Source of the DNA: Rhodanobacter sp. C06
Lineage (GTDB): Bacteria; Pseudomonadota; Gammaproteobacteria; Xanthomonadales; Rhodanobacteraceae
DNA: 63,524 bases
Reading direction: 5' to 3'
Assembly (NCBI RefSeq): GCF_002001105.1
Contig: NZ_MUNP01000067.1
Location: forward strand, 1-63,524
The notes below the pieces were generated by a model. The model saw only the letters and a list, made by a program, of their open reading frames with translations, searched no databases and was not told the DNA's origin. The position numbers were made by a program, and so were the translations under genes. Shown one piece after another: positions 32,588-63,249 of the stretch (the first letter of the stretch is position 1; each line of letters opens with the position of its first letter).

Positions 32588-32600
32588 CGCGGCGTTTCCC

Positions 32601-35231: not shown

Positions 35232-35258
35232 CGCTCTCCGCCTTCGCCGGATGGCGGG

Positions 35259-46091: not shown

Positions 46092-46976
46092 ATGAGTGGA
46101 CAACACGGGCTTGAAACAGGGTGCCCGGTCGAACCCGGCCACGGTGCTCGCCGGCATCGATCGGGGGCGCCCTTGAGCGAGGCGCAACTGCTCGACACGC
46201 AGCGCGCCTTCGACAGCGTGGCGGCCGACTACGACGGTCCCCGCGGCAACAACGAGCTGATCCAGCGCATGCGCGCGACGTTGTGGGATACCGTATGCCG
46301 CGAACTTCCCGGTGGCGGACGTTTGCTCGACCTGGGCTGCGGCACCGGCCTCGACGCGATCGAATTCGCGGGGCGCGGCTACCAGGTCGTCGCTACCGAC
46401 TGGTCGCCGCAGATGGTCGCCCGCACCCAGGTGCGCGCCGCCGCCGCGGGCATGGAGGCGCGCGTCGCCACGGCGCACCTCGGCATCCAGCAGCTCGACC
46501 GGCTCGACGACGCGTTTGACGGCATCTACTCGAACTTCGGCCCGCTGAATTGCGCGCCGGACCTGCACGCGGTCGCGGCCGAATGCGCGCGCCTGCTGCG
46601 GCCGGGCGGCCGGCTGGTGTTTTCGGTGATCGGCCGGATCTGCCCGTGGGAGCTGGTGCATTACATGCTGCGCGGCCGCTTCCGCCGGGCCGGCGTGCGC
46701 GCCGCGCGTGGCGTCACCGCGGTGGGCATGAACCGCCACACGATCTGGACCAGCTACTACCTGCCGCGCGAATTCCACCGCGCCTTCGCCGGGCAGTTCG
46801 CACTGGCAGGCTATCGCGCGCTCGGCCTGTTCCTGCCGCCGCCCTACCTGGTGGACTACTACCGCCGCCACCGTCGCCGCTGCGCATGCCTGGGCTGGCT
46901 CGACGATCGCCTCGGCGCGCTGCCGCTGTTGCGCGACATGGGCGACCACTTCCTGATCGTGATGCGCAGGCGCTGA
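46092..46976 (+). CDS. Class I SAM-dependent methyltransferase
   Basis: A 294-residue Rossmann methyltransferase. AFDSVAADYDGPRGNN is the usual entry. Motif I is LLDLGCGTGLDAIEFAGRG, motif II VVATDWSPQMV, and LLRPGGRLVFSVIG is the post-motif III strand. The C-terminal third, with HTIWTSYYLPREFHRAF and LFLPPPYLVDYYRRH, resembles methyltransferases found beside radical SAM natural-product genes. It is first in the plus-strand arm of the uncharacterised locus. Substrate unknown. Confidence 0.85.
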   Translation: MSGQHGLETGCPVEPGHGARRHRSGAPLSEAQLLDTQRAFDSVAADYDGPRGNNELIQRMRATLWDTVCRELPGGGRLLDLGCGTGLDAIEFAGRGYQVVATDWSPQMVARTQVRAAAAGMEARVATAHLGIQQLDRLDDAFDGIYSNFGPLNCAPDLHAVAAECARLLRPGGRLVFSVIGRICPWELVHYMLRGRFRRAGVRAARGVTAVGMNRHTIWTSYYLPREFHRAFAGQFALAGYRALGLFLPPPYLVDYYRRHRRRCACLGWLDDRLGALPLLRDMGDHFLIVMRRR

Positions 46977-46988
46977 CGCCATGGGATT

Positions 46989-47256
46989 AGAGCCTGTTCA
47001 TGATCTCTCCGTGGCTCGCGTTGCCTTGCCATGGTCGTCAGGTGGTAGTGCGTGGCGCAGCGCCTGCCTGGCTGGCAGGCCAAGCCGCGCGCTGCCGCAT
47101 GGCGGCCATGGCGAGGCAACCCGAAGGGCCGGGTCTGTTTGCCCACATGCCGGCGTCATCACTCGGTCGTGGACGGACGTCCACTCCCTCCTTCTTCCTT
47201 GGCCTGCGCGCAAACAGCTCCCGGCGCGAGCTACGGAGAGGTCATGAACAGGCTCT
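46989..47256. mobile_element. MITE-like element with 24-base terminal inverted repeats
   Basis: The 24 bases at 46989-47012 (AGAGCCTGTTCATGATCTCT, then CCGT) recur as reverse complement at 47233-47256 with one mismatch. Inside are further inverted segments, for example GTTGCCTTGCCATGG near 47019-47034 and CCATGGCGAGGCAAC near 47104-47118, so the whole 268 bases can fold into a long hairpin. No transposase is encoded. The right end includes the ATG (47244-47246) of the amidohydrolase gene. A target duplication was not obvious. It could instead be a structured RNA leader. Confidence 0.6.
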
Positions 47257-48470
47257 TGCAGGCCGCGCTGGACATCAGCCTGTGCCGTGCGATCACGGTC
47301 GCGCCGGCCGGCATCTCGCACGCGCCGCTGCCGATCCGGGCTGCACGGATCGGCGCCTCGCTGGCCGCGCGGGCCTGGCGCATCGACTTGCGCGACCACC
47401 TGATCTTCCCCGGCCTGATCAACGCGCACGAGCACCTGCACGTCAACGCCGTGCCGCCGTTGCCCGCGGATACGCCGTTCGCGAACAGCTACGCGTGGAT
47501 CGCCGCGTTCCAGGCACATTTCGCCGAGCCCGCCGTGGCCGCCGCGCTGCGCGTGCCGAAGGCGCTGCGGATGCGCCACGGCGCGCTGAAGAACCTGCTC
47601 GCCGGCGTTACCTGCGTGGCGCACCACGACCCCTGGCACCCGGCGCTAGATGCGCTGGATTTCCCGGTGGCCTTGCTGCGCGACTACGGCTGGAGCTACG
47701 CGCTGGGTTGGCCCGGTTACGGGCCGCCGGTGCCGGCGAGCTTCGCCGCCACGTCGGCGGGGCGGCCTTGGATGATCCACCTGGCCGAGGGCACGGATGC
47801 GACCGCGCAGGCGGAGCTGGCGCAGCTCGACCGGCTCGGCTGCCTGGCGGCGAACAGCGTGCTGGTGCATGGCGTGGGCCTGCGCGAGCGCGACATCGAC
47901 CGCGTGATCGCCAGCGGCGCCGCGGTGGTGTGGTGTCCGACCAGCAACCGCAGGCTGCTCGGGCGCACGCTCGATCCGCGGCGCCTGTGCGCGGCCGGTC
48001 GCCTCGCGCTGGGCAGCGACTCGCGACTCAGTGGCGCGCGCGACCTGCTCGACGAAATGCGCGACATCGCCACCCGCGGCGAGCTCGCGCCCGCGCAGAT
48101 CCTGGCGCTGGCCACGACCGCGGCGGCACGCATCCTGCGCCTGCCGGGGCGTGGCCACCTCGCGCCGGGCGCAAGGGCGGACCTGGTGATCGTCGAGGAC
48201 CGCGGCGGCGCGGCGCGCAGCCTGACCGACCTCGGGCGCAGCGACATCCGCGCGGTGGTGCGCGACGGCGTGCCGTGCATCGCCGATCCCGATTTCGCCG
48301 AATGGTTCGCGGTCGCCGGCGTGGACACCGTGCCCGCGCTGCTGGACGGACGGCCGAAGCTGCTGGCCGCGCCGCTGGCCGAGCCGGACCTGCTTGCGCT
48401 CGAGCCCGGGCTCGAACTTGTCGCCGCATGCAACGCGCCCGAGCGCGAGTGTGCCGTGGAAGCGCGATGA
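47244..48470 (+). CDS. Amidohydrolase-superfamily protein
   Basis: A 408-residue TIM-barrel metal hydrolase of the TRZ/ATZ-like group. Metal ligands are seen in NAHEHLH (HxH), the histidines around VAHHDPWH, WMIHLAEG and LGSDSRLSG (the catalytic aspartate). PGLINAHEHL and the GARADLVIVED end are typical. Relatives deaminate or hydrolyse heterocyclic amines; the substrate here is unknown. The ATG lies inside the right repeat of the preceding element. It is followed by a methyltransferase with ATGA overlap. Confidence 0.82.
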   Translation: MNRLLQAALDISLCRAITVAPAGISHAPLPIRAARIGASLAARAWRIDLRDHLIFPGLINAHEHLHVNAVPPLPADTPFANSYAWIAAFQAHFAEPAVAAALRVPKALRMRHGALKNLLAGVTCVAHHDPWHPALDALDFPVALLRDYGWSYALGWPGYGPPVPASFAATSAGRPWMIHLAEGTDATAQAELAQLDRLGCLAANSVLVHGVGLRERDIDRVIASGAAVVWCPTSNRRLLGRTLDPRRLCAAGRLALGSDSRLSGARDLLDEMRDIATRGELAPAQILALATTAAARILRLPGRGHLAPGARADLVIVEDRGGAARSLTDLGRSDIRAVVRDGVPCIADPDFAEWFAVAGVDTVPALLDGRPKLLAAPLAEPDLLALEPGLELVAACNAPERECAVEAR

Positions 48471-49216
48471 CGATGATGACGCGCCCGCCGCTGCTCGAAC
48501 CGACCGAGGCCTACGCGCTGTGGGCAGCGGAGTATCCGGCGCACGCCCACAACCCGGTGATGTGCGCCGAGGAGCGCGCGATGCTCGCGTTGATGCCAGC
48601 CTCGCTGCGCGGGCAGGCGGTGCTCGACGCCGGCTGCGGCAGCGGGCGTTATCTGCTGCACGCGCTGCGGCACGGCGCGGCGCACGCGATCGGCGTGGAC
48701 CTCTCGCCGCCGATGCTGGAACGCGCCGCCGCGGAACTGGGCAGCTTGCGCACCGGCGCACAGGTCTCCCTGCTGCAGGGGAACCTGCTGGCCCTGCCGG
48801 TGCCGGACGCCCAGGCGGACCTGACGGTCTGCGGCCTGGTCGTCGGGCACCTCGATGACCTGGCGCAGGCATTGGCCGAGCTGCGCCGGGTGACCCGGCC
48901 CGGCGGCATCCTGCTGTGCAGCGACGTGCATCCGATCGGGCACGCGCTGGGCTGGCAGCGCGATTTCAAATCCGCGGGACGCCGCTACGCCGTGCGCCAC
49001 ACGTCGCACCTGTACGGCGATTGGCACGCCGCCTGCGCCGCGCTCGGGCTGCGCATCGAGCAGGTGCTGGAACCCATGCTAGCCCCCGCCGACATCCCCG
49101 CCGGCGCGCACTTCGATCCCCGGGCGCTGGAGGTCCCCGTCGCGCTGGTGTTCCGCTTGCGGCGCGCACCCGGTTCCGCCGGCGCCGATCCCGCTTGCAC
49201 GCAGGCCCGCCCATGA
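48467..49216 (+). CDS. Class I SAM-dependent methyltransferase
   Basis: A 249-residue methyltransferase of the UbiE/BioC-like fold. YALWAAEYPAHAHNPVMCAEE leads to motif I VLDAGCGSGRYLLHAL, motif II AIGVDLSPPML, and RRVTRPGGILLCSDVHP. Coupled by ATGA overlaps to the amidohydrolase upstream and the radical SAM gene downstream, so the three may act on one substrate. Confidence 0.87.
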   Translation: MTMMTRPPLLEPTEAYALWAAEYPAHAHNPVMCAEERAMLALMPASLRGQAVLDAGCGSGRYLLHALRHGAAHAIGVDLSPPMLERAAAELGSLRTGAQVSLLQGNLLALPVPDAQADLTVCGLVVGHLDDLAQALAELRRVTRPGGILLCSDVHPIGHALGWQRDFKSAGRRYAVRHTSHLYGDWHAACAALGLRIEQVLEPMLAPADIPAGAHFDPRALEVPVALVFRLRRAPGSAGADPACTQARP

Positions 49217-50721
49217 CCGCTCCGCGCACCTTGCTGATCAACCCGACCGTCACCTCGCGTTCCAGCGCGCGCTTTCCGCTCGGACTGCTGCAGCTGGCGG
49301 CAGCGCTGGACCGCAGCGGCAGCAGCCGCATCATCGACGGCAACGTGGACCGCGACTTCGTCAACGACAGCCTGCGCGCGATGGAACAGGAGCGCTTCGA
49401 CGCCGTCGGCGTGGGCGTGATGGGCGGTCCGCAGGTGGCCACGGCGATCGCCGTGTCCAAGGCGATACGCGAACATTTTCCGGCGACGCCGATCGTCTGG
49501 GGCGGCTACTTCCCGACCCTGCACACGGACGCCACGCTGGCCGCGCCCTATGTGGATTACGCGATCCGCGCGCAGGGCGAGCAGGCCTTGCCCGAGCTGG
49601 TCGCCGCGCTCGCCGGCGACCAGCCCGCGCTGGAGCGGATCGCCGGGCTGTCGTGGAAACGTGCCGGCACGGTGGTGCACAACCCGGCGCGGCCCATCAT
49701 GCGCCACGACCCCGCGGGGTTGCTGCCCTACGACAAGCTCGGCGATCCGCGCCGCTACCTGGCGCGCACCTACCTGGGCCAGCGCACCGTCGCCACCCAG
49801 GCGGCGATCGGCTGCCGCTACCACTGCACCTTCTGCGGCGTGGCCGCGATGTTCGGCGGTGCGACCCAGCTGCCGGCCGCGGCACGGCTGGAACGCGAGC
49901 TGGCGTATTTCAAGCACACGCTGGGCGCCGATGCGGTGCAGTACTTCGACCACAACTTCTTCGACCGCGAGGCGGACATGCTGCCGCTGCTCGAGGTGAT
50001 GGCGCGGTTCGAGTTGCCGTGGTGGTGCTACGCCCGTTCCGACGCGCTGCTCAAGCTCTCGGAGCATGCGTGGAAACTGGTGCGCCGGAGCCGGCTGCGC
50101 ATGGCCTACATCGGCGCGGAATCGCCCAGCGGCCAGATGCTGCATGACATCCGCAAGGGCACGCGGCCGGACCAGACCCTGGAGGTGGTCGAGCTGTGCC
50201 GCCGCCACGGCGTGATCCCGGAGTTGTCGTTCATGGTCGCGCCGCCGGAGCACACCGAGGAGGAGACCGAACGCACGTTCGAGTTCATCCGCGAGATGAA
50301 GCGGATCAACCCGCAGGCGGAGATCATCATCTACATCTACACGCCACTGCCGGAGCACAGCCGCCACGAGAAGGACCGCAGCAAGCGGCCGGGCGCGCCG
50401 CTGCTGGACCTCCACGGCGAGCCGGTGGTGTTCCCCGCGACGCCGGACGAATGGGCCCAGCCGCGCTGGGTCGATTACGCCTGCCACATGGATGCGCCCT
50501 GGCTCAGCGACCGGCTGCGCCGCCGCATCAACGACTTCGTCACCGTGCTGCGCTGCCGGTATCCCACGGTGCAGGACTTGCGCGCGCCGCCATGGGCCAA
50601 GCGCAACCTCAGCGCGATGGCCGGCTGGCGCTACCGCTTCCGCCGGTACGACCGGCCGTGGGAGCTGAACCTGGCGAACCGGCTGGTGCGCCTGCGCATG
50701 CCGCAGGTGTCAGGCCTGTAG
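49213..50721 (+). CDS. B12-binding-domain radical SAM enzyme
   Basis: A 502-residue enzyme of the BchE/P-methylase type. An N-terminal cobalamin-binding-like Rossmann domain (LLINPTVTSRSSARFPLGLL, VGVGVMGGPQVATAIA, WGGYFPTL) precedes the radical SAM barrel with CRYHCTFC (C201, C205, C208). Such enzymes methylate unactivated carbons or close rings. The family's usual DxHxxG in the B12 domain is not seen, so cobalamin binding may be base-off or absent. Its partners suggest modification of a small molecule or glycolipid. Confidence 0.85.
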   Translation: MTAPRTLLINPTVTSRSSARFPLGLLQLAAALDRSGSSRIIDGNVDRDFVNDSLRAMEQERFDAVGVGVMGGPQVATAIAVSKAIREHFPATPIVWGGYFPTLHTDATLAAPYVDYAIRAQGEQALPELVAALAGDQPALERIAGLSWKRAGTVVHNPARPIMRHDPAGLLPYDKLGDPRRYLARTYLGQRTVATQAAIGCRYHCTFCGVAAMFGGATQLPAAARLERELAYFKHTLGADAVQYFDHNFFDREADMLPLLEVMARFELPWWCYARSDALLKLSEHAWKLVRRSRLRMAYIGAESPSGQMLHDIRKGTRPDQTLEVVELCRRHGVIPELSFMVAPPEHTEEETERTFEFIREMKRINPQAEIIIYIYTPLPEHSRHEKDRSKRPGAPLLDLHGEPVVFPATPDEWAQPRWVDYACHMDAPWLSDRLRRRINDFVTVLRCRYPTVQDLRAPPWAKRNLSAMAGWRYRFRRYDRPWELNLANRLVRLRMPQVSGL

Positions 50722-50724
50722 GTC

Positions 50725-51861
50725 GTGCCGGTGTACGTGGCGCAGATCAATTTCCTGCCCGCCCCCCCCGGCTTGGGCCTCGCGGCCCTGCTCGAACGCT
50801 GGCCGTCGCTGGCGGACATCGCGGAGCTGGTGGCGGGCGCCGGCGTCCGGGTCACCGTGCTGCAGGCGGCCGCGCATGCCGAGCGCCTGACGCGCGCCGG
50901 CGTGGACTACCGCCTCGTCGATCTGCGCGGAACATGGACGGTGCAAGGCCGGGGCCGCCGTTTCGCCGATGCGCTGGGCGGTGGCGACATCGACCTGCTG
51001 CATGCGCACAGCCTGGCCTGGGTCGACGATGCGTTCGCCGTTGCCGGCAACCTGGCGCCGGGATTGCCGGTGGTTCTGCAGGACCATGCCGATCGACTAC
51101 CGCGCTGGTGGCGGCGGCCGCGTCACCGTCGTCGCTTCGCGACAGCAGCCGGCGTGGCCTTCACGGCAGTCGAACTTGCGCGGCCCTTCGTCGCCGCCGA
51201 CGTATTCGACCCGACGACGCGGCTGTTCGCGATCCCCGAATCCAGCAGCCGCTTCACGCCGGGCGATCGCGCGCGCGCACGCGCAGCGACCGGTGTGCAC
51301 GGCAATCCTTGCGCACTGTGGGTGGGGCGCCTGAACCGCGGCAAGGATCCACTCACGGTGCTCGACGGCGTCGCGCTGGCGGCGGAGCGCATGCCCGGCC
51401 TGCAGCTGTGGTGCGCCTTCGGCGAGGCGCCGATGCTGGCCGAGGTGCGGGCGCACATCGATGCCGATCCGCGGCTGGCCGGGCGCGTACACCTGCTGGG
51501 CAAGGTGGCGCATGCGCAGGTCGAGACGTTGATGCGCGCCGCCGACCTGTTCGTCTCCGGCAGCCGCGCCGAGGGCAGCGGCTACGCGGCGATGGAGGCG
51601 CTCGCCTGCGGACTGACGCCGGTACTCACGGACATCCCGGCGTTCCGCGCGCTGACCTGCAACGGTCGCATCGGCCGGCTGTGGCCCTGCGGCGATGCGC
51701 CGGCGCTGGCCGCGGCGCTGGTCGATGCCGCGGCGAACCGTCCTTCGCCGCAACAGGTGCGCGCGCATTTCGACGAGACGCTCTCGTTCCAGGCGGTGGG
51801 GCGGCTCTGGGCCGAGGCCTATGCACGGGTGCTCGACGACCGCCGCGGGAGCGCGCCATGA
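50725..51861 (+). CDS. Glycosyltransferase family 4
   Basis: A 378-residue GT-B transferase. The C-terminal nucleotide-sugar site includes LWVGRLNRGKDPLTVLDGVALA, LMRAADLFVSGSRAEGSGYAAMEALACG and the E-x7-E motif within it. A GTG start at 50725 follows the radical SAM stop by 3 bases and is the only suitable start. Sugar and acceptor unknown. Confidence 0.87.
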   Translation: MPVYVAQINFLPAPPGLGLAALLERWPSLADIAELVAGAGVRVTVLQAAAHAERLTRAGVDYRLVDLRGTWTVQGRGRRFADALGGGDIDLLHAHSLAWVDDAFAVAGNLAPGLPVVLQDHADRLPRWWRRPRHRRRFATAAGVAFTAVELARPFVAADVFDPTTRLFAIPESSSRFTPGDRARARAATGVHGNPCALWVGRLNRGKDPLTVLDGVALAAERMPGLQLWCAFGEAPMLAEVRAHIDADPRLAGRVHLLGKVAHAQVETLMRAADLFVSGSRAEGSGYAAMEALACGLTPVLTDIPAFRALTCNGRIGRLWPCGDAPALAAALVDAAANRPSPQQVRAHFDETLSFQAVGRLWAEAYARVLDDRRGSAP

Positions 51862-52958
51862 AACTCGCGCTGGTGGTTCCCGGCGGAGTGGATCGCAGCG
51901 GCGAGTTCCGCGTGATCCCGGCCCTGCTGGCGCTGATAGTGCGGCTGGCACGCACGCACGAGGTGCACGTCTTCGCGCTGCACCAGGAGGCGGCGCCGGC
52001 TTGCTGGGAACTCGCCGGCGCACATATCCACAACATCGGCGAAGGCCGGACGCGGCTGCGCGCGATCGCGGGGATCCGCGCCGAGCACAGGCGAGCACCG
52101 TTCGATGCGATCCACGCGATCTTCTCCGGCTCCTGCAGCCTGGTTGCCGTGGCGGCGGCGAAGCTGTTGCGGCGGCCGAGCCTGGTGCATGTCGCCGGCG
52201 GCGAGCTGGTCGCGTTGCCCGCGATAGCCTACGGCGGCCGACGCACGTGGAAGGCGCGGCTGCGCGAAGCGGTGGTGCTGCGCGGCGCCGATGCGATCAC
52301 CGCCGCCAGCGCGCCGATCCTCGAGTCGCTGCGCGCGCTCGGGCTCGAAGCCCGACGCGTACCGCTGGGCGTCGACCTGCTGGCCTGGCCGCCACGCGCG
52401 CCGCGCGGGCGCGACAGGGGGCCGGCCCGGTTGATCCACGTGGCCAGCCTCAACCGCGTCAAGGACCAGCCGACCCTTCTGCGCGCGCTGGCGATCCTGG
52501 CCGGGGCAGGGCCGGACTTCGAAATGGACATCGTCGGCGTGGACACCTTGCAGGGCGAGATGCAGCGGCTCGCCGGCCGGCTCGGGCTGGATGGACGGGT
52601 GCGCTTTCTCGGCTTCAAGACTCAGCGCGAACTGCGCCTGCTGATGGAGTCGGCCGACCTGCTGGTGATGTCGTCGCTGCACGAGGCCGGCCCGCTGGTG
52701 GCGCTCGAGGCCGCTGCCGTGGGCGTGCCCACGGTGGGCACGGCGGTAGGGCACATTGCGGAGTGGGCGCCGGCGGCGGCGCTGGCCGTGCCGGTCGGTG
52801 ACGCGTCGGCGCTCGCGGACGCGATCCGCTGCCTGCTCGGCGACGAGGAACTGCGGCTGCGCCTGGCCGCGGGTGCGCAGCTCCGCGCGCTGTGCGAGGA
52901 CGCCGACCACACCGCGCGCGCGTTCGAAGCGCTCTACCTGCGCCTGCGCGCCGCATGA
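51858..52958 (+). CDS. Glycosyltransferase family 4
   Basis: A 366-residue GT-B enzyme: LALVVPGGVDRSGEFRVIPA at the start, LIHVASLNRVKDQPTLLRAL opening the C-terminal domain, and LLVMSSLHEAGPLVALEAAAVG with the E-x7-E donor motif. It overlaps the first GT4 by 4 bases and the acyltransferase by 4. The two GT4 enzymes probably act in succession. Confidence 0.88.
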   Translation: MKLALVVPGGVDRSGEFRVIPALLALIVRLARTHEVHVFALHQEAAPACWELAGAHIHNIGEGRTRLRAIAGIRAEHRRAPFDAIHAIFSGSCSLVAVAAAKLLRRPSLVHVAGGELVALPAIAYGGRRTWKARLREAVVLRGADAITAASAPILESLRALGLEARRVPLGVDLLAWPPRAPRGRDRGPARLIHVASLNRVKDQPTLLRALAILAGAGPDFEMDIVGVDTLQGEMQRLAGRLGLDGRVRFLGFKTQRELRLLMESADLLVMSSLHEAGPLVALEAAAVGVPTVGTAVGHIAEWAPAAALAVPVGDASALADAIRCLLGDEELRLRLAAGAQLRALCEDADHTARAFEALYLRLRAA

Positions 52959-54073
52959 ACACGCAAGGCACCTGCATGCCTTCGCTGGACGGACTCCGGG
53001 CGATCTCGATCCTGATGGTGTGCTACGGGCATCTCTGCGGGACGCGGCGTTTTCCCGTTTCCATCGCACAATACGGCCGCTGGTGCGGCGACGTCGCCCA
53101 TCTCGGCGTGCTGGTGTTCTTCGTGATCTCCGGTTTCCTCATCACCTCGCTGTTGATGGGCGAGCGCGAGGCGACGGGGGAGATTTCGCTGAAGCGGTTC
53201 TACCTGCGCCGAATCCTGCGCATCTTTCCCGCGTTCTACGCGTTTATCCTGGTCATGGCGATCGCGACGGCGGCGGGCGCGGTGCAGTTGAGCGGCCGCG
53301 ACTTTGCCTACGCGCTGACCTACACGGTCAACTTCGAGTCGGGCTGCTCCCTGCAGATCGGACACCTCTGGTCGCTGTCGGTCGAGGAGCAGTTCTACCT
53401 GCTGTGGCCGCTGACCCTGCTGGCCCTGCGCGAGCGTCGCGCCTTGCTCGTCGCGGTCGCGGCGATCTGCATCGGTCCGCTGGTGCGCTGGGGCATCCAT
53501 GAATGGATATTCCACGTCGATCCGCGTTTCCCGAGCGGCATGCTGACCAGCTTCCCCGCGATGTTCGATTACCTGGCCACCGGTTGTGCATTGGCATTGC
53601 TGCGGCCATGGCTGCTGACCCGCACGTGGTACCTGCGCCTGACCGACAGCCGCTGGCTCGTGCTCGCGATCCCCGTGGTGCTGCTGATCAACCGCATGGG
53701 CAGCCATCCCGTGGCGATCCTGCTGGGATCACCGCTGATGAACCTGTGCCTCGCCGTGCTGATCGAGTCGAGCACGCGTCATGCGAACTCGCTGGCCGGA
53801 CGCTTGCTGAACTGGAAACCGATCGTATTCATCGGCGTACTGAGCTACTCGCTGTATCTGTGGCAAATGCCTTTCCTCGACCATCGCTCCGACGTGTGGA
53901 TGCATGCATTCCCGCAGAACCTGATGTTCGTTGTTCTCGCGGCGCTGTCGTCCTGGTTCCTGGTCGAGCGCCCGTTCAACCGTCTGCGCCGGCGGCTGCG
54001 ACATGGCAACGAGCTGCCCGCCATCACGCGGACGCGGCACGGGTGCCGCACGGCCACAGGCTCGCTGCGATGA
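52955..54073 (+). CDS. Membrane acyltransferase (acyltransferase family 3)
   Basis: A 372-residue protein with ten or so transmembrane helices. The start PSLDGLRAISILMVCYGHL and the R/H pair of RFYLRRILRIFPAFY are the signature of the OafA/OatA group, which O-acetylates or acylates sugars across the membrane. HLWSLSVEEQFYLLWPL is another conserved block. There is no extra C-terminal SGNH domain. Confidence 0.92.
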   Translation: MNTQGTCMPSLDGLRAISILMVCYGHLCGTRRFPVSIAQYGRWCGDVAHLGVLVFFVISGFLITSLLMGEREATGEISLKRFYLRRILRIFPAFYAFILVMAIATAAGAVQLSGRDFAYALTYTVNFESGCSLQIGHLWSLSVEEQFYLLWPLTLLALRERRALLVAVAAICIGPLVRWGIHEWIFHVDPRFPSGMLTSFPAMFDYLATGCALALLRPWLLTRTWYLRLTDSRWLVLAIPVVLLINRMGSHPVAILLGSPLMNLCLAVLIESSTRHANSLAGRLLNWKPIVFIGVLSYSLYLWQMPFLDHRSDVWMHAFPQNLMFVVLAALSSWFLVERPFNRLRRRLRHGNELPAITRTRHGCRTATGSLR

Positions 54074-54915: not shown

Positions 54916-54925
54916 GCCTGCACGC

Positions 54926-55858: not shown

Positions 55859-55860
55859 CG

Positions 55861-56490
55861 TCAGACTCTCCGGAACAGCAGGAACAGGTAAAGCTGGCTC
55901 GCGAGCGCAAGGCCGCCGGGCATCCGGCGCTCCAACCGGAAATGCGGCGCCGCCGCCTGCGCCACGACCCGCGGCGTGAAGCGATGGATGCGGCTTTCGC
56001 TGGCGATGGCGTAGTGGCCGTGGCGCACGAGGTTCACCAGGTTCGCTCGCCACCAGCGGTAGCGCGCGTCGGCGAGGCAATAGGGGTTGAGCATGCTGGC
56101 CAGCACGAAGCCGCCGTGCCGGACCACGTATGACAGTTGCTCGAACAGCGCGGCATGATCCGCGAAGTGATTGAAGACCGCGAAGTTCGCGGTGACCGCC
56201 TGCACCTTGCAGGCAAGCGGCGAGGTGACCGCGACGACGGTCTTGTGTTCGATCTCGTCGCGGCAGTGCCGCAGCAGGCAAGCGTGCATCGCCTCCGAAG
56301 GCTCGAATACGAAGGTCGGATGTCCGTGGGCGGCATAGGTTTTCGCATCGATGCCGGTGCCGGCGCCGAAGTCGAGCACGGCCGCTCCCGCAGGCAGCAG
56401 GTCCAGCGCCAGTTGCTGGAACCTGGCGCGCACGCTTCGGTCCCGCGGCGAGGCCAGCATGAATTCGTGGTACTGCTCGCCGGTGTGCAT
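55861..56490 (-). CDS. Class I SAM-dependent methyltransferase
   Basis: A 209-residue methyltransferase: AAVLDFGAGTGIDAKTYAAHG (motif I), TFVFEPSEAM, and VVRHGGFVLASMLNPY. The first in-frame ATG at 56490 is used. The frame is open a little farther upstream, but no start codon with a ribosome site is seen between it and the previous stop. It lies between the nucleotidyltransferase and the flavin-reductase-like gene in one operon. Confidence 0.8.
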   Translation of the reverse strand: MHTGEQYHEFMLASPRDRSVRARFQQLALDLLPAGAAVLDFGAGTGIDAKTYAAHGHPTFVFEPSEAMHACLLRHCRDEIEHKTVVAVTSPLACKVQAVTANFAVFNHFADHAALFEQLSYVVRHGGFVLASMLNPYCLADARYRWWRANLVNLVRHGHYAIASESRIHRFTPRVVAQAAAPHFRLERRMPGGLALASQLYLFLLFRRV

Positions 56491-56516
56491 GTCGTCGATG
56501 GCCTTGCGGACGTCCG

Positions 56517-57746
56517 CTATTCGCTCGCCGATGAGGCGCGCGGCTCCAGCGCCGCGCGCACCACGTACAAGGTGTCCATGCGCGGCACCGGTCGCACGAG
56601 CCAGGTCAGCGCGCGCCGGCGCCGGGGCGAGGTGACCCAATCCTGTCCCTGCAGCCAGAGCTGGGTGCGCGCCATGTCGGCGCGTTCCTTGCGGGCTTCG
56701 TCCGTGGGCCGCACATGGCGCGCAAGATAGCGCGCGGCCTCGCCGAAAGAGCGCGACCACTCGATGCCGGCGAGCGCGTGCAACCACAGTTCGGAGCACG
56801 ACACCCGCGTCAGGGTCTGCCGCCGCGAGACCGCGCGCAGCAGGGGAGGGCAGTCGCGTTCGAGCCGCGCGAGCACGGTGTCGGGTACCGCATGCCGGTA
56901 GTAGCGCGCGACCAGCCGCAACGGCGGCAGTGCCCACCACGGCGCTTCGTCGCCGTGGGTGCCCCACAGTTCGTTCCAGTCGCGCGCGACCATGCGCGTG
57001 GCCAGCAGCGAGATGTCGTTGAGATGCATCAGGCGCAGGCTGCGGCCGCAGATGTTGCCCGCCGCGTGCAGCAGCAGGTGGCTCATCAGCGCGCCGCACG
57101 AGGGGTAGTCGTTCAGGCCCGCATGCGGCTCGTGCGGCTGGACCCGCTCGGTGATGTCGACCGCGGCCACCGGCAGCCGCTCCCGGATGCGCGCGTGCAG
57201 TTCGATGTTCACCGGCGCATCGTGGTGTTCGCCCAGTCCGGCATGGGGCTGGCCGCCGGCGGGCTTGAACACCTGGTGCTTCCACTGCGCGAACGAGGCC
57301 ACATAGCCGAGTTCCTGCAGCAGCACGCCCGCGGCCGCGGCGTCGGTTTCGCGCACCAGCAGGTCGATGTCGGCCATCGGCCGCTCGCCCGGCGCGTAGA
57401 TGCCATCGGCATGCAGCGCCGCGCCCTTCAGCGCGACGACGGGAAAGCCGGCGGCGCGGGCGCCGGCGTCGATGCGTTTGAGCAATTCGATGATGCGGCG
57501 ATGGCGCTGCTCGACCTGCGTGCGCTGGTCGGCAAGGAAATGCCGCCACGCCGGGTGGTCCCAGGTCGAGTACCGGTCGAGCAGCGGCGCCACGCCGTGA
57601 GCGACGGCGGCGGCCGGGGCCAGCGCCCACTCCAGTTCGCTCCACGCGGGTGTCTCGCTGCCCGGTCGCGCCAGTGCCAGCTCGGTGGCGAGCGCTTCGG
57701 TGGTGCGGCGCAGGCCGTTCCTGACGATGGCGAGTGGCGGCAACAT
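56517..57746 (-). CDS. Nucleotidyltransferase-fold protein (PF14907-like)
   Basis: A 409-residue protein. The signature VVALKGAALHADGIY, then ERPMADIDLLVRETDAAAAG, matches the 'uncharacterised nucleotidyltransferase' family (NTP_transf_5) with its DxD metal pair. The C-terminal part is rich in Arg, Trp and His. Members occur with HprK-like kinases in lasso-peptide (paeninodin-type) and exopolysaccharide loci, where they are thought to modify the product; an HprK-like gene is divergent here. Its ATG lies 2 bases after the radical SAM stop. Confidence 0.82.
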   Translation of the reverse strand: MLPPLAIVRNGLRRTTEALATELALARPGSETPAWSELEWALAPAAAVAHGVAPLLDRYSTWDHPAWRHFLADQRTQVEQRHRRIIELLKRIDAGARAAGFPVVALKGAALHADGIYAPGERPMADIDLLVRETDAAAAGVLLQELGYVASFAQWKHQVFKPAGGQPHAGLGEHHDAPVNIELHARIRERLPVAAVDITERVQPHEPHAGLNDYPSCGALMSHLLLHAAGNICGRSLRLMHLNDISLLATRMVARDWNELWGTHGDEAPWWALPPLRLVARYYRHAVPDTVLARLERDCPPLLRAVSRRQTLTRVSCSELWLHALAGIEWSRSFGEAARYLARHVRPTDEARKERADMARTQLWLQGQDWVTSPRRRRALTWLVRPVPRMDTLYVVRAALEPRASSASE

Positions 57747-57748
57747 CG

Positions 57749-59233
57749 CTATCGCACTTGCAGGGCGATGCCCCGCGGCACGGGCGGCGGCGTCGCATCG
57801 TGGTTGCGGTGCGCGTGTTCGCACGCGACCAGCGCATCCCAGCGTGCGGCCAGCGCGGCACTGGCGACACGGTAGCGTTTCGGCGGCGTGCCGGCCTTGG
57901 TCTGCTGCAGCACGACCTGCTCGTGCAGCAGATCGCGCACGCTGCGGTAGAACTCCGAGTCGTAGGCACCGCGGAACATCATGGCCAGGTCGCCGCTGTC
58001 CCGCCAATGCGTCTTGCGACCGAGCCGGGCCTTCACCAGTTCGTAGAACCGCGTGCCGGGCAAGGGGTAGGACACGCTCACGCCGATGTCGTCCGGCGCC
58101 GCTTGCGCGACCAGTTCGCGGGTGGCCAGCAGATCGGCCAGTTCCTCGCCCAGATAGCCGAGCTGGATGAAGAAGCCCACGCGGATGCCGTGCCGGCCCA
58201 GCCGTTCGCGCGCCACGATCAGTTCGGTGACCCTGGTGCCCTTGTTCATGGCGTCGAGCACGCGCTGGCTGCCGCTCTCGGCGCCGATCCACGCCTCGGC
58301 GCAGCCGGCCTGCGCCAGCGCTTCGGCCATGCGCTCGCTGATCAGATCGGCGCGGGTCTGGATGGTGAACGGCACCGCGCCGTCGCTGGCGCGCAGGTGT
58401 TCGCCGAACTCCGTCACCCAGTCGACGCGGAAGCCGAAGATGTCGTCCGCCATCCAGATGTGGTCGGGCCGGAAGGCATGTTTCAGGTGGCTCATTTCCG
58501 CCGCGACATCCTGCGGGCTGCGCTGCATGTAGTGGTTGCCCCAGATCGGCTTGGCGCACCAGTTGCAGCGGAACGGACAGCCACGCGACGCGGCCATGTT
58601 GAGGCTGAAAAAGCCATGCCGTTCGTGCCAGATCGCGCGATAGCGTTCGATATCGATCAGGTCCCAGGCCGGGTGGCCGACCAGGCGCGGGTCCGGCGGC
58701 AGTGCGCCGACGCGCGTCAGCTGCTGCTGTCCGCCCACCTGCGCGGCAACGCCCGCGAGGCCGGCCACCCAAGCCGGGGTAGTGACGTCGGGCGCGCGCT
58801 CCAGCCGGCCGATCAGTTCGGCCAGCGTGGCGACGCCTTCGCCGATCAGCACCGCCTCCGCGCCCGCCGCGAGAAAGGCCTCCGGGTGATCGGAAGCGTC
58901 GGAACCGGCAACGATCACGCGGGCGCCGGCGGCGCGCGCCTCGGCGATCATGCGACAGGCCGCCTCGCGCATGCGGCCCAGGCACATCTTGGTCAGGAAG
59001 TTGAAGTTGTCCTCGTAGAGCACCACCACGTCCGGGCGCGCGCCGTGCAGGGATGCGGCGAAATCCTCGACGCCCTCGGCCAGCATCGCGTCGAACAGTG
59101 CGACCTCGTGCCCCAGCCGTCGCAGCAGGGCGGCCACCTGGATCGTGGCGAGCGGAGGATACGGTTTGCCACGCTCCCACTGCTTCCGGTCGTACTTCAG
59201 GTAATAAGCGTGGCCGACCAGGATCTTCAGCAT
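57749..59233 (-). CDS. B12-binding-domain radical SAM enzyme
   Basis: A 494-residue enzyme. An N-terminal Rossmann domain (LVGHAYYLKYDRKQWERG, LGHEVALFDAML, VIVAGSDASDHPEAFLAAGA) precedes the radical SAM barrel with CPFRCNWC (C219, C223, C226), WIGAESGSQRVLDAMNKGT and LGYLGE. It differs strongly from the plus-strand radical SAM protein, so the two are not recent duplicates. It leads the minus-strand operon radical SAM / nucleotidyltransferase / methyltransferase / flavin-reductase-like. The ATG at 59233 is chosen because the upstream frame lacks conserved sequence. Confidence 0.86.
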   Translation of the reverse strand: MLKILVGHAYYLKYDRKQWERGKPYPPLATIQVAALLRRLGHEVALFDAMLAEGVEDFAASLHGARPDVVVLYEDNFNFLTKMCLGRMREAACRMIAEARAAGARVIVAGSDASDHPEAFLAAGAEAVLIGEGVATLAELIGRLERAPDVTTPAWVAGLAGVAAQVGGQQQLTRVGALPPDPRLVGHPAWDLIDIERYRAIWHERHGFFSLNMAASRGCPFRCNWCAKPIWGNHYMQRSPQDVAAEMSHLKHAFRPDHIWMADDIFGFRVDWVTEFGEHLRASDGAVPFTIQTRADLISERMAEALAQAGCAEAWIGAESGSQRVLDAMNKGTRVTELIVARERLGRHGIRVGFFIQLGYLGEELADLLATRELVAQAAPDDIGVSVSYPLPGTRFYELVKARLGRKTHWRDSGDLAMMFRGAYDSEFYRSVRDLLHEQVVLQQTKAGTPPKRYRVASAALAARWDALVACEHAHRNHDATPPPVPRGIALQVR

Positions 59234-59446: not shown

Positions 59447-60478
59447 ATGGCCTTGACGATCTCCCACGGCGTGCCGGATGCGGACGCCGACCCTTTCCGC
59501 GAGCGCAGCGCCCCCGCGTTCTCCGTGCGCAAGCAGCTCCTGGGCGGCGACTTCCGCTTCGACAGCGCCAGCGCGGCGTTGCTGCAAGTGGTCGACACTG
59601 CCTACGCCGGCCTGCCGGCGCATCGCTTGCCGGGGGCCGCGCCAGAGTTCCGCATCGAGCTGCGACTGCTTCCGCGCCAGGCATCGCCGCAACGCGCCGG
59701 GCCGCCGCCGGTGCGGATGCAATCCGGCGCGGGCCTGATCTGTGGCGTGATGGACGCGTCGAACTACGTGGTGCTGGCGCCCGCGCAGCAGCAGGCGCTG
59801 GTGGTGGCTTCGGAGGACATGCTCGACCAGCCCTACCACCTGCGCTACGAACTCGTGGAATTCGCCGTATTCACCCTGGCGACGCGCGGGCTGGGCCTGG
59901 TCCCGCTGCATGGCGCCTGCGTGGGGCGGCAGGGGCGCGGCGTGCTGCTGCTGGGCGCAAGCGGTTCGGGCAAATCGACGCTGGCCCTGCACGGCCTGCT
60001 GCATGGCCTGGATTTTCTCGCCGAGGACGCCGTCTTCGTGCAACCGGAAACCTTGCTCGCCACCGGCGTCGCCAACTACCTGCACGTTCGGGCCGACGCG
60101 TTGCACCACGTGGACAATCGCGTCGTGCAGGATTGGCTTGAGCGCTCGCCGCGCATCCGCCGGCGCAGCGGCGTGGAGAAGTTCGAGGCCGACCTGCGCC
60201 AGGGCCGCGGCCACCTCGCGGCCACACCGCTGGAATTGATCGGTGCGGTGTTCGTCTCCGCCGAGGCGGCCGACGATGCGGATGCGCTGCTGAGTCCGAT
60301 CCGCGCCGGCGACATCGCAACCCGCCTACGCGTTGATCAGTCCTACGCGGCGACGCAACCGGGCTGGGACCGCTTCGAGCAGCAGCTGGTCCGGCGCGGC
60401 GTGCACGAGTTGCGTCGCGGGCGTCATGCGCGTGACGCCGTCGCCGCGCTGCAAGCACTGCTAGTCGGGTCGCGCTGA
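59447..60478 (+). CDS. HprK-like serine kinase/P-loop protein
   Basis: A 343-residue protein. A poorly conserved N-terminal half (LLGGDFRFDSASAALLQVVD, then PEFRIELRL) precedes an HPr-kinase-like C-terminal domain: VPLHGACV, Walker A GASGSGKST (170-177) and LAEDAVFV with the acidic pair. Unlike true HprK it is not near ptsH. Relatives phosphorylate lasso peptides at the C-terminus or occur in exopolysaccharide loci with PF14907-type nucleotidyltransferases, one of which is divergent here. The ATG at 59447 follows a GAGG box. Confidence 0.8.
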   Translation: MALTISHGVPDADADPFRERSAPAFSVRKQLLGGDFRFDSASAALLQVVDTAYAGLPAHRLPGAAPEFRIELRLLPRQASPQRAGPPPVRMQSGAGLICGVMDASNYVVLAPAQQQALVVASEDMLDQPYHLRYELVEFAVFTLATRGLGLVPLHGACVGRQGRGVLLLGASGSGKSTLALHGLLHGLDFLAEDAVFVQPETLLATGVANYLHVRADALHHVDNRVVQDWLERSPRIRRRSGVEKFEADLRQGRGHLAATPLELIGAVFVSAEAADDADALLSPIRAGDIATRLRVDQSYAATQPGWDRFEQQLVRRGVHELRRGRHARDAVAALQALLVGSR

Positions 60479-60659
60479 TCGCCACGGTGGCGGGTGGCAA
60501 CCTTTGTCGCCGGCGGTGGCACCCACCTTACTTCCGCCGGGAGTCAAGTAACTTCCAGGTCGGGACCGACGAACCACCGGAGTGGTTCACCATCAACCGG
60601 GCTGGGACCCGGCGCGGGCTGTTCCGTGCCGGACCGATGCCTCCATGCGAGGGTCGCAA
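60479..60659. other. Intergenic region without supported gene
   Basis: 181 bases between the kinase and peroxiredoxin genes. A 21-codon minus-strand ORF (60537-60602) containing SSVPTWKLLDSRRK is present but has no core-peptide features or same-strand partner. Confidence 0.4.
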
Positions 60660-61277
60660 ATGAAAACACGTCTTGCGGGATCGATGGCCGCAGCTGCGCT
60701 GCTGGCGCTGCTGGTGGCGCTGCCGGCGCTTGCCGCGCTCAAACCCGGCGCCACGGCGCCGGACTTCACCGCCGAAGCCAGTCGCGCCGGCAAGGATTTC
60801 AGCTTCTCGCTGAAGGAGGCGCTCAAGCAGGGTCCGGTGGTGGTGTACTTCTATCCATCGGCGTACACCGGCGGCTGCGATCTGGAGGCGCATACCTTCG
60901 CCACCGAGAAGGCCAGGTTCGACGCGGCCGGCGCCACCATCATCGGGGTGTCCGCCGACAGCATCGAGCGGCTGAATGCCTTCTCGTCCGATCCGAAGTA
61001 TTGCGCCGGCAAGTTTCCGGTGGCCTCCGATCCCGACGGCAAGGTGGCGGCGTCCTACGATCTCAAGATGACGGCGGAGCAATCCGGCATCAACGACGTG
61101 CGCGGCGTGGCGATCGACCATGGCTTCATCTCGCGCACCACCTTCGTCATCGCCAGCGACGGCCGCATCGTTGCCGCGCTGTCGTCGGAGACCGACCATC
61201 TGCGGCCCGACCAGCACGTGGCACGGTCGCTGGCCATCGTGCAGGGCATGCGGGCGGGCAAGCAGCCGACGCAGTGA
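60660..61277 (+). CDS. Exported peroxiredoxin (Bcp/PrxQ-like)
   Basis: A 205-residue peroxiredoxin with a cleavable signal (1-25, ending LPALAA), hence periplasmic. The peroxidatic cysteine is C73 in YPSAYTGGCDLEAHTF; a second cysteine in PKYCAGKF could resolve it. ISRTTFVIASDGRIVA is the typical late strand. The usual TPGC is TGGC, a mild variation. Its link to the surrounding biosynthetic genes is unclear; it may protect envelope electron carriers or products. Confidence 0.88.
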   Translation: MKTRLAGSMAAAALLALLVALPALAALKPGATAPDFTAEASRAGKDFSFSLKEALKQGPVVVYFYPSAYTGGCDLEAHTFATEKARFDAAGATIIGVSADSIERLNAFSSDPKYCAGKFPVASDPDGKVAASYDLKMTAEQSGINDVRGVAIDHGFISRTTFVIASDGRIVAALSSETDHLRPDQHVARSLAIVQGMRAGKQPTQ

Positions 61278-61407
61278 CACGGCCCGACCATTGAGCGTTC
61301 GTCCGGAAGACAGGGCCGCCACTGCGGTGGCCTTGTTCGCTGCGGTGGTCGCGAGGCGTTGCGCCGGACACGCACAACTTTTGATCCGGCGCTCCGCACT
61401 CACCGGC

Positions 61408-63249
61408 ATGCGAAATCCGGCCAGGGAGCCACGCCGCACCAAATCGTCGGGCAGCGCCTGCGGAAGCACGGCTGCCGACAGGCCGCGCGACCCCGCGGCG
61501 GTGCCCGACGAACCTTCGATCCTGCATGTCCGCTCGTTGGACCTGTTGCGCGCGCTGCTGCGCACGCTCGCGCACCGGGATCTGGCGGAAACCGCCGTGT
61601 ACGTCGCCTTGTCGCTGGGCGCGGCCTTCGCCGGCAGTGTGGCAGCGCTGCTGCTGGTGCCGCTGGTGCAGCCCGACCACGCGTTGCCGTTCGGCGGCGC
61701 CTTGCTCAGTGCACACCGCAGCGTCGGCGCGCAGGCGGCGGCCTTTGCGGCGGCCAGCGGCGCGTTTGCCTTGCTGCGCTGGCAGGCGGCGCGGATCGGC
61801 GCACGACTGGTCGGCCGCTATGGCATGAACCTGCGCCGTCGAGTGCATGCGCGGCTGATCGACGCACCACTGGCGTCGCTGGCCGGTGCGACGTCCGCGG
61901 AAATCGCCAACGTGCTCACCCACAACGTCGAGATCCTCGTGCAGGGCTTCAGCGCGCTGCAGCAGCTGCTGGTGGCCGGCATCACCGCGGCGGTCAGCCT
62001 GGGCTTCGCATTCTGGGTCTCGCCGCTGCTGCTGCTGGCCGTGCCGGTGCTGGCGGGCCTCGGGCTGGCCGCCTCGCGCGCCTGCGGTCGCGAGCAGGCG
62101 CTGGTCGCGCGCCGCTACGTGGCCGACATGACCCAGCTGTTCTGGCACAGCGAGGATTTCCCGCGACGCCTGCGCCACGTGCGCTCGTTCGAACGCGAGG
62201 ATGCGGAGAAGGCGAGTTGCAGTGCGATTGCGGCCCGCCTGGGCCAAGGCTATCGCCGTCAGCTGGAGCTGGTGGCTTCCGGGAGACTGGTGCTCGAATT
62301 GCTGGCGACACTCGGCATCGCGGCGCTCTTCCTGCTTGCCGATCGCTGGCGCGGAGTGGACCGGGCCGCGCTGATCGCCGTGTGCCTGCTGCTCGGGCGC
62401 CTGCTGCCTTACCTGGTGGCGACGCGACAAAGCTTCCAGCAACTGCGTTCGACCGCCCCGGCCTTCGAGCTGTGGCAGCGCTACATGCGCCTGGACGCGG
62501 ACCGCACGTCTGCGCCCACGGTGCCGCTGCGACCGGTGGACGGTGACGGCGTGTTGCGCATCGAGCGGATGCGGCTGACCCCGCCGCGGGCAGGCCTCGA
62601 GGTCGGCGAACTGGTGCTGGCGCCCGGCGAGCTCACGCTGATTTCCGGCGATTCCGGGATCGGCAAGAGCAGCCTGGTCGACGTGCTGGCCGGCATGGCG
62701 ACGCCCGAGGTCTTCGTGGCGCGCCACGACAACCGGACTATCGATTTCGACGCCTATCGCGAACTGGTGCGCTTCGGCGCCTACGTCAGCCAGAACGTGC
62801 GGCCGTGGCAACGCTCGGTGCGCGAGTGTCTGCGCTGGGCGGCGCCCGATGCCACTGATGCACTGCTGCGCAGCGCGCTGGCCGATGTCGGCCTCGACCG
62901 GCGGCTGGCCGACTCGCCGCACGGACTCGACATCGCGTTGCACAGCGCGTCCAGCCGGCTTTCCGGCGGCGAACTGCAGCGGCTTCTGCTGGCCCAGGTG
63001 ATCCTGCGGCAACCGCGCCTGGCCGTGCTGGACGAGGCCACCAGCGCGCTCGATGCCGCCGCCGAGTTGGCGGTCCTCGCCGCGTTGAAGCGCCGCCTGC
63101 CGCGGACCAGTCTGGTCGTCGTGTCGCACCGGCCCGGCGTGGCGGTGTTGGCGGATCAAAGCCTGACGATAGAAAACGGCTTCCCGGCGTCAGTGACCGG
63201 GAGCGCCGTCCTGCGCTGCACGGCATGGAGACAGGCCCGCAGCGCCTGA
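61408..63249 (+). CDS. ABC exporter, fused permease and ATPase
   Basis: An ABC half-transporter of about 613 residues. Six transmembrane helices begin near DLAETAVYVALSLGAAFAG. The ATPase carries Walker A SGDSGIGKSS, a Q-loop in GAYVSQNVRPWQ, signature SRLSGGELQRL, Walker B LAVLDEATS and the H-loop SHRP. Subfamily B exporters like this secrete peptides or lipid-linked products. The start is uncertain: ATG 61408 is given, but GTG 61501 begins closer to conserved sequence, and the residues before it are low-complexity. No peptidase C39 domain is present. Confidence 0.82.
   Translation: MRNPAREPRRTKSSGSACGSTAADRPRDPAAVPDEPSILHVRSLDLLRALLRTLAHRDLAETAVYVALSLGAAFAGSVAALLLVPLVQPDHALPFGGALLSAHRSVGAQAAAFAAASGAFALLRWQAARIGARLVGRYGMNLRRRVHARLIDAPLASLAGATSAEIANVLTHNVEILVQGFSALQQLLVAGITAAVSLGFAFWVSPLLLLAVPVLAGLGLAASRACGREQALVARRYVADMTQLFWHSEDFPRRLRHVRSFEREDAEKASCSAIAARLGQGYRRQLELVASGRLVLELLATLGIAALFLLADRWRGVDRAALIAVCLLLGRLLPYLVATRQSFQQLRSTAPAFELWQRYMRLDADRTSAPTVPLRPVDGDGVLRIERMRLTPPRAGLEVGELVLAPGELTLISGDSGIGKSSLVDVLAGMATPEVFVARHDNRTIDFDAYRELVRFGAYVSQNVRPWQRSVRECLRWAAPDATDALLRSALADVGLDRRLADSPHGLDIALHSASSRLSGGELQRLLLAQVILRQPRLAVLDEATSALDAAAELAVLAALKRRLPRTSLVVVSHRPGVAVLADQSLTIENGFPASVTGSAVLRCTAWRQARSA

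Follow-up and report, generated by a model that had tools for sequence, protein, structure and literature searches.

A candidate Wzx/Wzy-type surface-glycan locus with a conserved tailoring gene set in Rhodanobacter sp. C06

The window analyzed here is a stretch of 63,524 nucleotides from Rhodanobacter sp. C06 (contig NZ_MUNP01000067.1). The original prediction placed a biosynthetic locus at positions 46092-63249; however, the conserved unit starts at the FdtA gene (36771), approximately 9.3 kb before 46092, so that the locus spans approximately 36771-63249 and comprises about two dozen genes. These are listed below, with gene starts of our own choosing (uncertain for the Wzy-like protein, AmHyd, MT4, Prx and the ABC exporter) and with counts that refer to 80 relative loci found with the rSAM2 query, many of which end at 10 kb or at contig ends.

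36771..37220, plus: FdtA/WxcM-like sugar isomerase (PF05523, 156.5 bits, cut-off 23)
37217..37870, plus: NeuD/PglD/VioB-family sugar acetyltransferase (TIGR03570, 187.8 bits, cut-off 160.8)
37878..38831, plus: GH32/GH130-like propeller protein, conserved (weak Pfam matches below cut-off)
38809..39750, plus: GNAT, Acetyltransf_6 (PF13480, 34.2 bits, cut-off 22)
39738..40877, plus: DegT-type sugar aminotransferase (PF01041, 373.6 bits; no equivalog cut-off reached)
40865..42127, plus: Wzx flippase, WzxE-like (PF13440 and PF01943 above cut-off)
42124..43065, plus: GT2-like glycosyltransferase, named by eye from sequence, place conserved
43056..44249, plus: polytopic membrane protein at the conserved Wzy position (7 hydrophobic segments)
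44236..45072, plus: Wzz chain-length protein (PF02706, 39.8 bits, cut-off 25.5)
46092..46976, plus: MT1, class-I methyltransferase (PF13649, PF08241; 59/80 loci)
47244..48470, plus: AmHyd, amidohydrolase (PF01979, 67.2 bits; 62/80)
48467..49216, plus: MT2, class-I methyltransferase (PF08241 within ORF 47000-49216; 64/80)
49213..50721, plus: rSAM1, B12-binding radical SAM protein (PF02310 and PF04055 above cut-off; 44/80)
50725..51861, plus: GT4a (PF13692, PF00534; 70/80)
51858..52958, plus: GT4b (NCBIfam GT4 models, below cut-off; 73/80)
52955..54073, plus: AT3, acyltransferase-3, optional cargo (PF01757, 95.2 bits; 4/80)
54070..54915, plus: MT3, optional class-I methyltransferase (PF08241; 5/80)
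54926..55858, minus: FlavR, flavin-reductase-like, optional cargo (PF01613, 45.6 bits; 14/80)
55861..56490, minus: MT4, optional class-I methyltransferase (PF13489; 14/80)
56517..57746, minus: NTP5, PF14907 nucleotidyltransferase (94.6 bits, cut-off 31.2; 80/80)
57749..59233, minus: rSAM2, B12-binding radical SAM protein (PF04055 and PF02310 above cut-off; the query defining the 80 loci)
59447..60478, plus: HprK-like kinase (PF07475, 27.8 bits, below cut-off 33.3; 79/80)
60582..61277, plus: Prx, AhpC/TSA peroxiredoxin, optional (PF00578, 92.7 bits; 14/80)
61507..63249, plus: ABC exporter with fused membrane domain (PF00005, 62.7 bits; 75/80)

The families named in the original prediction were all recovered in place by Pfam and NCBIfam scans (GT4b by NCBIfam only). 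Because sugar genes, a flippase, a GT2, a Wzy-like protein and Wzz lie upstream of them, the genes at 46092-63249 form, judging by their sequences, the downstream half, concerned with tailoring, of a Wzx/Wzy-type surface-glycan locus rather than a free-standing metabolite cluster; the sugar-pathway genes, WzxE-like flippase and Wzz also agree with the earlier supposition of a glycan-related product. FdtA lies upstream of Wzx in all 15 further genomes, and the trio of acetyltransferase, GH-like protein and GNAT is present in 14 of the 15, genome G010 being the one that lacks it; the acetyltransferase is 74-97 % identical across 14 loci. The flippase scored 280.5 bits against the WzxE model (cut-off 325), and the Wzy-like protein gave no Pfam match. 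Neither an initiating transferase nor an outer-membrane export gene was recognised within the locus, and the genome contains members of the initiating phosphoglycosyl transferase families (three of PF00953 and one of PF02397), all of them off the window's contig. Thus, the locus resembles Wzx/Wzy-dependent loci, including that of the enterobacterial common antigen, in its amino-dideoxy-sugar genes, WzxE-like flippase, Wzy-like protein, Wzz and three glycosyltransferases, but differs in the absence of recognised initiating and outer-membrane export genes and in the additional two B12 radical SAM proteins, deaminase-type amidohydrolase, HprK-like kinase, PF14907 protein and ABC exporter. No ManNAcA pathway genes or enterobacterial common antigen glycosyltransferases were recognised in general family scans of the locus proteins.

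Tight gene spacing, which had been taken to imply co-regulation, is seen across much of the plus arm, with 4-base overlaps at AmHyd/MT2, MT2/rSAM1, GT4a/GT4b, GT4b/AT3 and AT3/MT3 and 3 bases between rSAM1 and GT4a, and at rSAM2/NTP5 and MT4/FlavR in the minus arm (2-base gaps), but not at MT1-AmHyd (approximately 270 bases with the AmHyd start taken at 47244) or HprK-Prx-ABC (approximately 100 and 230 bases).

Both rSAM1 and rSAM2 are B12-binding (class B) radical SAM proteins, in which the two domains are present and the CX3CX2C motif is invariant among relatives, although neither reached an NCBIfam equivalog cut-off. AprD4 and OxsB, neither of which is known to methylate, are among their closest relatives of solved structure, so that C-methylation by the two proteins is not assured. 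The residues typical of deaminases are invariant in AmHyd (HxH 126/128, H243, E246, H273, D323), which is 61-96 % identical over 81 matched stretches. The modelled fold of the HprK-like kinase (Foldseek: PEPCK, 1e-8; HprK/P, 4.6e-5) and its P-loop place it in the HPr kinase/PEPCK superfamily, with the cut-offs of the HPr kinase/phosphorylase families themselves not reached (TIGR00679, 29.3 bits, cut-off 240); the P-loop, H155 and D194 are invariant in 13 sequences. In NTP5, D126, D128 and E182 are invariant, no solved structure matches by sequence, and the predicted fold weakly resembles aminoglycoside nucleotidyltransferases, with no fold match at E 0.001 or better. The ABC exporter matches CydD/MsbA-like NCBIfam models below their cut-offs.

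Close relatives carrying the genes separately, which would have been at odds with a co-inherited locus, were sought and not found: rSAM2, HprK and NTP5 each occur in the same 73 of the 197 family genomes, on one contig in 72. Furthermore, loci of Rhodanobacter, Dyella, Luteibacter, Xanthomonas and Lysobacter share a gene order that runs from Wzx, Wzy and Wzz on into the tailoring genes, at cross-genus protein identities of approximately 60-80 %, and the protein distances of eight core genes correlate at 0.65-0.86 (47 loci, without an outside control). Chance neighbourhood is ruled out by this synteny and co-occurrence, the kept order being far beyond chance. The two radical SAM genes are not obligate partners: rSAM1, found in 44 of the 80 loci and missing from all 6 genomes examined in one Xanthomonas genus cluster, is dispensable. 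Of the other genes in the original prediction, FlavR, MT4, Prx, MT3 and AT3 are optional, variable cargo; the slot between GT4b and NTP5 is strain-variable and in relatives holds decoration-type cargo, for example, a sulfotransferase.

More broadly, rSAM2 was detected in 52 of 299 genomes of an order sample (E 1e-60) and, among 321 genomes of a class sample (E 1e-50), solely in the window's own genome; the 32 plasmid records that match rSAM2 are all below 60 % identity. A recent mobile island was considered and rejected: the window contains no tRNA and the upstream flank genes are common to relatives, with a sigma-factor-like gene at all 16 sites compared (the window and 15 genomes) and, at 13 of the 16, a putative outer-membrane protein, both named by eye. 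Given this shared flank, and with rSAM2 present in 2 of 15 members of the genus, a fixed site of long standing that has undergone losses is the favoured explanation.

It is also conceivable, though unlikely, that two systems are merely neighbours here, namely a glycan locus resembling those of the enterobacterial common antigen or O-antigen (FdtA to GT4b), and a small-molecule module (rSAM2, NTP5, HprK, ABC exporter and a methyltransferase) responsible for producing a phosphorylated metabolite and exporting it. The arms converge or diverge instead of forming one operon, the module has its own exporter, and in four distant MAG loci (L128-L131), of which L129 is a small islet, rSAM2-NTP5-HprK occurs in another arrangement with MT1 or an MT1-like gene. 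However, rSAM1 of the other arm is found in the same family genomes as the module genes, bar one fragmentary assembly, the arms abut in many loci (NTP5-GT4b gap below 100 bases in 15 of 73), and GT4b and MT1 stay near the nucleus in some distant loci. In some distant loci, the nucleus adjoins glycosyltransferase or heptose-type genes.

A ribosomally synthesized, lasso-like peptide cluster, in which a precursor peptide would be phosphorylated by HprK, glycosylated by NTP5, methylated by the radical SAM proteins and exported by the ABC transporter, was weighed as well and appears improbable. HPr-kinase-like and nucleotidyltransferase genes do accompany lasso-peptide genes (PMC9266682; PMC7533575), the former providing the PsmK/PsmN pair of pseudomycoidin as a kinase-nucleotidyltransferase precedent, with PsmN likened to NTP5 by its description, and the SynChlorMet ScmC and HprK-related NCBIfam models match the kinase weakly. 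The present pair, however, sits in a glycan-locus setting, and the earlier observation that cyclase, PqqD and precursor are missing was borne out: no cyclase or protease family was found among the scanned locus proteins, the sole PqqD match in the window's own genome (E 0.06, on another contig) does not exceed the cut-off, and no ORF family of at least 20 aa is common to most loci in core gaps of 700 bases or less, once what look like neighbour ends are set aside. In two examples of each, the larger small-ORF families (up to 41 of 69 loci) resemble the termini of adjacent genes or Xanthomonas-type sequence; this comparison covered gaps of at most 700 bases within the loci. Exosortase/XrtA exopolysaccharide loci were compared too; the HprK-related kinase, FemAB-type GNAT and GT4 models match weakly, all far below their cut-offs (including the FemAB-XrtA model for the GNAT at 38809..39750), and no exosortase is present among the scanned locus proteins.

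There is, finally, a slight chance that the locus is an already characterised polysaccharide locus that went unrecognised for want of names or annotation. The 80 loci include 28 named Xanthomonas records, so annotators must have met it, and amino-dideoxy sugars are known from Xanthomonas lipopolysaccharide (LPS). Xanthan gum and LPS in Xanthomonas are likewise made by surface polysaccharide loci, and the wxc LPS locus also makes an amino-dideoxyhexose, but neither the gum nor the wxc cluster is known to contain a radical SAM, HprK-like or PF14907 gene. A text search of the open-access literature, with most subscription journals outside its scope, found no description of the locus among the papers listed. 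One article names a radical SAM-like hit, XACb0001 (PMC3130047), taken to be a plasmid gene from its tag.

Collectively, the occurrence in the same 73 of 197 genomes, the kept order, the sugar, flippase and Wzz matches, the initiating-enzyme families elsewhere in the genome, the kept active-site residues, the kinase fold, the PsmK/PsmN precedent, the decoration-type cargo and the distant loci beside glycosyltransferase or heptose-type genes lead us to favour, on balance, a Wzx/Wzy-type surface-glycan locus with a fixed tailoring set. Set against this reading are the Wzy-like protein without a family match, the lack of a recognised initiating or outer-membrane export gene in the locus, the weak NTP5 fold match, the kinship of the radical SAM proteins with AprD4 and OxsB, the uncontrolled distance correlations, an ABC exporter beside Wzx that is not accounted for and the missing trio in G010. 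The best reading of the product is a methylated, probably phospho-substituted glycan; the gene content, the co-inheritance, the order and the catalytic motifs are observed, whereas we infer every reaction, the polymer and its place on the cell. FdtA, DegT and the NeuD/VioB-type acetyltransferase would yield an N-acylated amino-dideoxyhexose. A lipid-linked repeat would be built by an initiating enzyme from outside the locus followed by GT2, GT4a and GT4b, to be exported and polymerised by the WzxE-like flippase, the Wzy-like protein and Wzz. Either the sugar donor or the lipid-linked repeat may be the substrate of the tailoring set, in which MT1 and MT2 would act as methyltransferases, unreactive carbons would probably be C-methylated by the B12 radical SAM proteins, AmHyd would take off a nitrogen group, and HprK would add phosphate to a hydroxyl, which NTP5 would probably cap with a nucleotidyl- or sugar-derived group as a phosphodiester. 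The ABC exporter might carry the tailored intermediate or donor, and the GT4b-NTP5 slot would supply strain-variable decorations.

Only tentatively do we propose the more specific scheme of glycan tailoring in which an HprK-family kinase phosphorylates a sugar, not a protein, a PF14907 enzyme caps the phosphate as a phosphodiester and C-methylation of the residue falls to a B12 radical SAM enzyme, giving a phosphoglycan common to soil Rhodanobacteraceae and Xanthomonas. In this scheme, rSAM2-NTP5-HprK-methyltransferase would be a portable module that other loci use as well.

If the surface-glycan reading is true, the polymer would be an envelope component that soil genera have in common with many Xanthomonas species and that is undescribed in the open-access text searched. 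The locus would then give a tractable setting for PF14907 proteins and HprK-like kinases outside peptides and for the part that B12 radical SAM enzymes play in assembling glycans, and its variable slot offers natural decoration variants for comparison.

In the window, which forms contig 17 of its own genome (4.14 Mb, 82 contigs), family scans of the proteins recovered every gene type named in the original prediction and detected a B12-binding domain in both radical SAM proteins (rSAM1 and rSAM2); by coordinates, 4-base overlaps pack much of the plus arm. The extent first assigned to the locus proved too small, however: glycan genes lie directly upstream, and the gene order is continuous in relatives.

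Genes of the upstream part of the locus
FdtA, the first gene of the set upstream of the genes originally included (family scan)
Acetyltransferase of the NeuD/PglD/VioB family, over its curated cut-off
GH-like protein, between the acetyltransferase and GNAT
GNAT, after the GH-like protein
DegT aminotransferase (family scan)
WzxE-like flippase, 280.5 bits against a cut-off of 325
GT2-like protein, after the flippase
Polytopic protein in the place of Wzy, without a family match in the Pfam scan
Wzz, the last of the upstream genes (family scan)

In relatives, this set is followed, in identical order, by the methyltransferase MT1, the amidohydrolase, the methyltransferase MT2, rSAM1, the glycosyltransferases GT4a and GT4b, the PF14907 nucleotidyltransferase (NTP5), rSAM2, the HprK-like kinase and the ABC exporter. 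FdtA was present in all 15 further genomes for which the upstream part was fetched, and the acetyltransferase, GH-like and GNAT genes in 14 of them, one genome (G010) having none of the three. A SnoaL-like protein scoring just under the cut-off is encoded between Wzz and MT1 in the window (45255-46001, minus strand) and, among the stretches searched, was also seen in G082, a genome of the same genus.

The chromosomal site is conserved as well, because the same flanking genes, named by eye, occur upstream in the Rhodanobacteraceae and Xanthomonas-family genomes examined (29659-31070 in the window; corresponding flanks of L141-L158): a sigma-factor-like gene at 16 of 16 sites and a putative outer-membrane protein at 13 of 16. 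Just upstream of FdtA, the minus strand of the window (31880-36464) encodes a c-type cytochrome, an MtrB/PioB-like porin and a multihaem CXXCH cytochrome, a set that by sequence resembles those for extracellular electron transfer; the porin and the multihaem cytochrome recur upstream of FdtA in G082.

Three genes of the locus are inherited together. At thresholds of E 1e-30 for rSAM2 and 1e-20 for the HprK-like kinase and NTP5, each was found in 73 of the 197 genomes sampled from the family, a sample that contains the genome of the window, and the three lists, compared side by side, are identical. Judged by eye from coordinates, all three share a contig in 72 of the 73; in the exception, G066, the kinase gene is on a different contig and rSAM2 starts 347 bases into the contig that carries it. 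rSAM1 (E 1e-60) was detected in 74 of the 197 genomes, the additional one (G166) being a 450-contig assembly. Within the genus of the window rSAM2 is present in 2 of 15 genomes, within the order sample in 52 of 299 (13 of these from a second family, with only a partial match in G377), and within the class sample in 1 of 321, the window's own.

The best 80 of a longer list of loci retrieved with rSAM2 span Rhodanobacter, Dyella, Luteibacter, Frateuria, Pseudoxanthomonas, Luteimonas, Lysobacter enzymogenes, Xanthomonas (28 records) and several MAGs. Among them, rSAM2 and NTP5 were each counted in 80, the HprK-like kinase in 79, the exporter in 75, GT4b in 73, GT4a in 70, MT2 in 64, the amidohydrolase in 62, MT1 in 59, Wzz in 47, rSAM1 and Wzy in 44 each and GT2 in 30; the stretches end at 10 kb or at contig ends, so that some absences are not real, and part of the exporter and GT2 counts are weak matches (~25-30% identity). 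Distance correlations among eight core genes over 47 loci (0.65-0.86) come without an outside control. The two radical SAM genes named in the original prediction do not form a set pair, because rSAM1 is absent from most Xanthomonas loci (3 present, 24 absent with the place covered and 1 not reached, among the 28) and from all six genomes of genus cluster g58, including, as matched by coordinates, Xanthomonas sp. Leaf131 (G401) and X. melonis (G396); in cluster g67, which on the same basis includes Xanthomonas sp. F10 (G347), it is present in five of six. As separate observations, the NTP5 match is split into two pieces in X. phaseoli L093 and in G162 (locus L042, as well as L068, whose contig is equally long), as is that of GT4b in L093, and rSAM1 of G090 carries an in-frame stop, reflecting either decay or sequencing errors.

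The interval between GT4b and NTP5 varies from 31 to 7187 bases (73 loci) and in the window holds an acyltransferase (AT3), two methyltransferases (MT3, MT4) and a flavin-reductase-like gene. Nine proteins from the GT4b side of NTP5 were scanned; three gave no family match, and the other six comprise one protein each of methyltransferase, sulfotransferase, aminotransferase, FAD-dependent and Fic type, plus a family-2 glycosyltransferase from L096, a locus in which no GT4b was detected. The longest insert measured (7187 bases; L110 13085-19423, Xanthomonas sp. GPE 39) includes the aminotransferase and the FAD-dependent protein.

Active-site residues are kept across aligned relatives: CX3CX2C in both radical SAM proteins; HxH, HxxE, H and D, a deaminase pattern, in the amidohydrolase; D126, D128 and E182 in NTP5; and the P-loop, H155 and D194 in the kinase. 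The latter scores under the HPr-kinase family cut-offs and is therefore named HprK-like; its predicted model (pLDDT 87, pTM 0.87) matches PEPCK (1e-8) and HprK/P (4.6e-5). For the NTP5 model (pLDDT 77, pTM 0.80) no structural match passed 1e-3, the closest being weak ones to ANT(2'')-Ia (E 2e-3), then LnuA and, lower, FKRP. The radical SAM proteins may C-methylate; their closest solved relatives include AprD4 and OxsB, neither of which is known to be a methyltransferase.

By analogy, the kinase and NTP5 would add a phosphate-linked substituent to the glycan. Pseudomycoidin provides the precedent for such a succession of kinase and nucleotidyltransferase: according to a review (PMC9266682), its C-terminal serine is phosphorylated by PsmK, after which PsmN adds one or two hexoses, although PsmN may alternatively act as a nucleotidyltransferase with the host performing the glycosylation. 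Butyrivibrio lasso clusters likewise contain kinase/nucleotidyltransferase genes, some adjoining family-2 glycosyltransferase genes, according to PMC7533575.

Some findings count against a Wzx/Wzy-type locus: the Wzy-like protein lacks a family match, and neither an initiating transferase nor a gene for outer-membrane export could be recognised within the locus, though elsewhere the genome carries three PF00953, one PF02397 and two PF02563 genes. The presence of an ABC exporter in the same locus as Wzx is a further such point. No description of the gene set was found in open-access full text, and it may already be known because most subscription journals lie outside that search. On balance, we lean slightly towards a glycan locus of the Wzx/Wzy type, equipped with a fixed and unusual tailoring module. 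In four loci from distant gammaproteobacterial MAGs (L128-L131), rSAM2, NTP5 (partial in L130) and the HprK-like kinase are clustered and accompanied by MT1 or a gene resembling it; their arrangement differs from that of the window. The islet in L129 (9971-21431) comprises rSAM2, NTP5, a methyltransferase, the kinase, a second B12 radical SAM gene and a GT2 gene, and adjoins genes resembling GmhB, GmhA, HddC/MurU and HddA, as in GDP-heptose synthesis. Because this nucleus recurs in L128-L131, and in L129 beside genes of GDP-heptose type, the gene content suggests that rSAM2, NTP5, the HprK-like kinase and a methyltransferase may constitute a portable tailoring module deployed in glycan settings.
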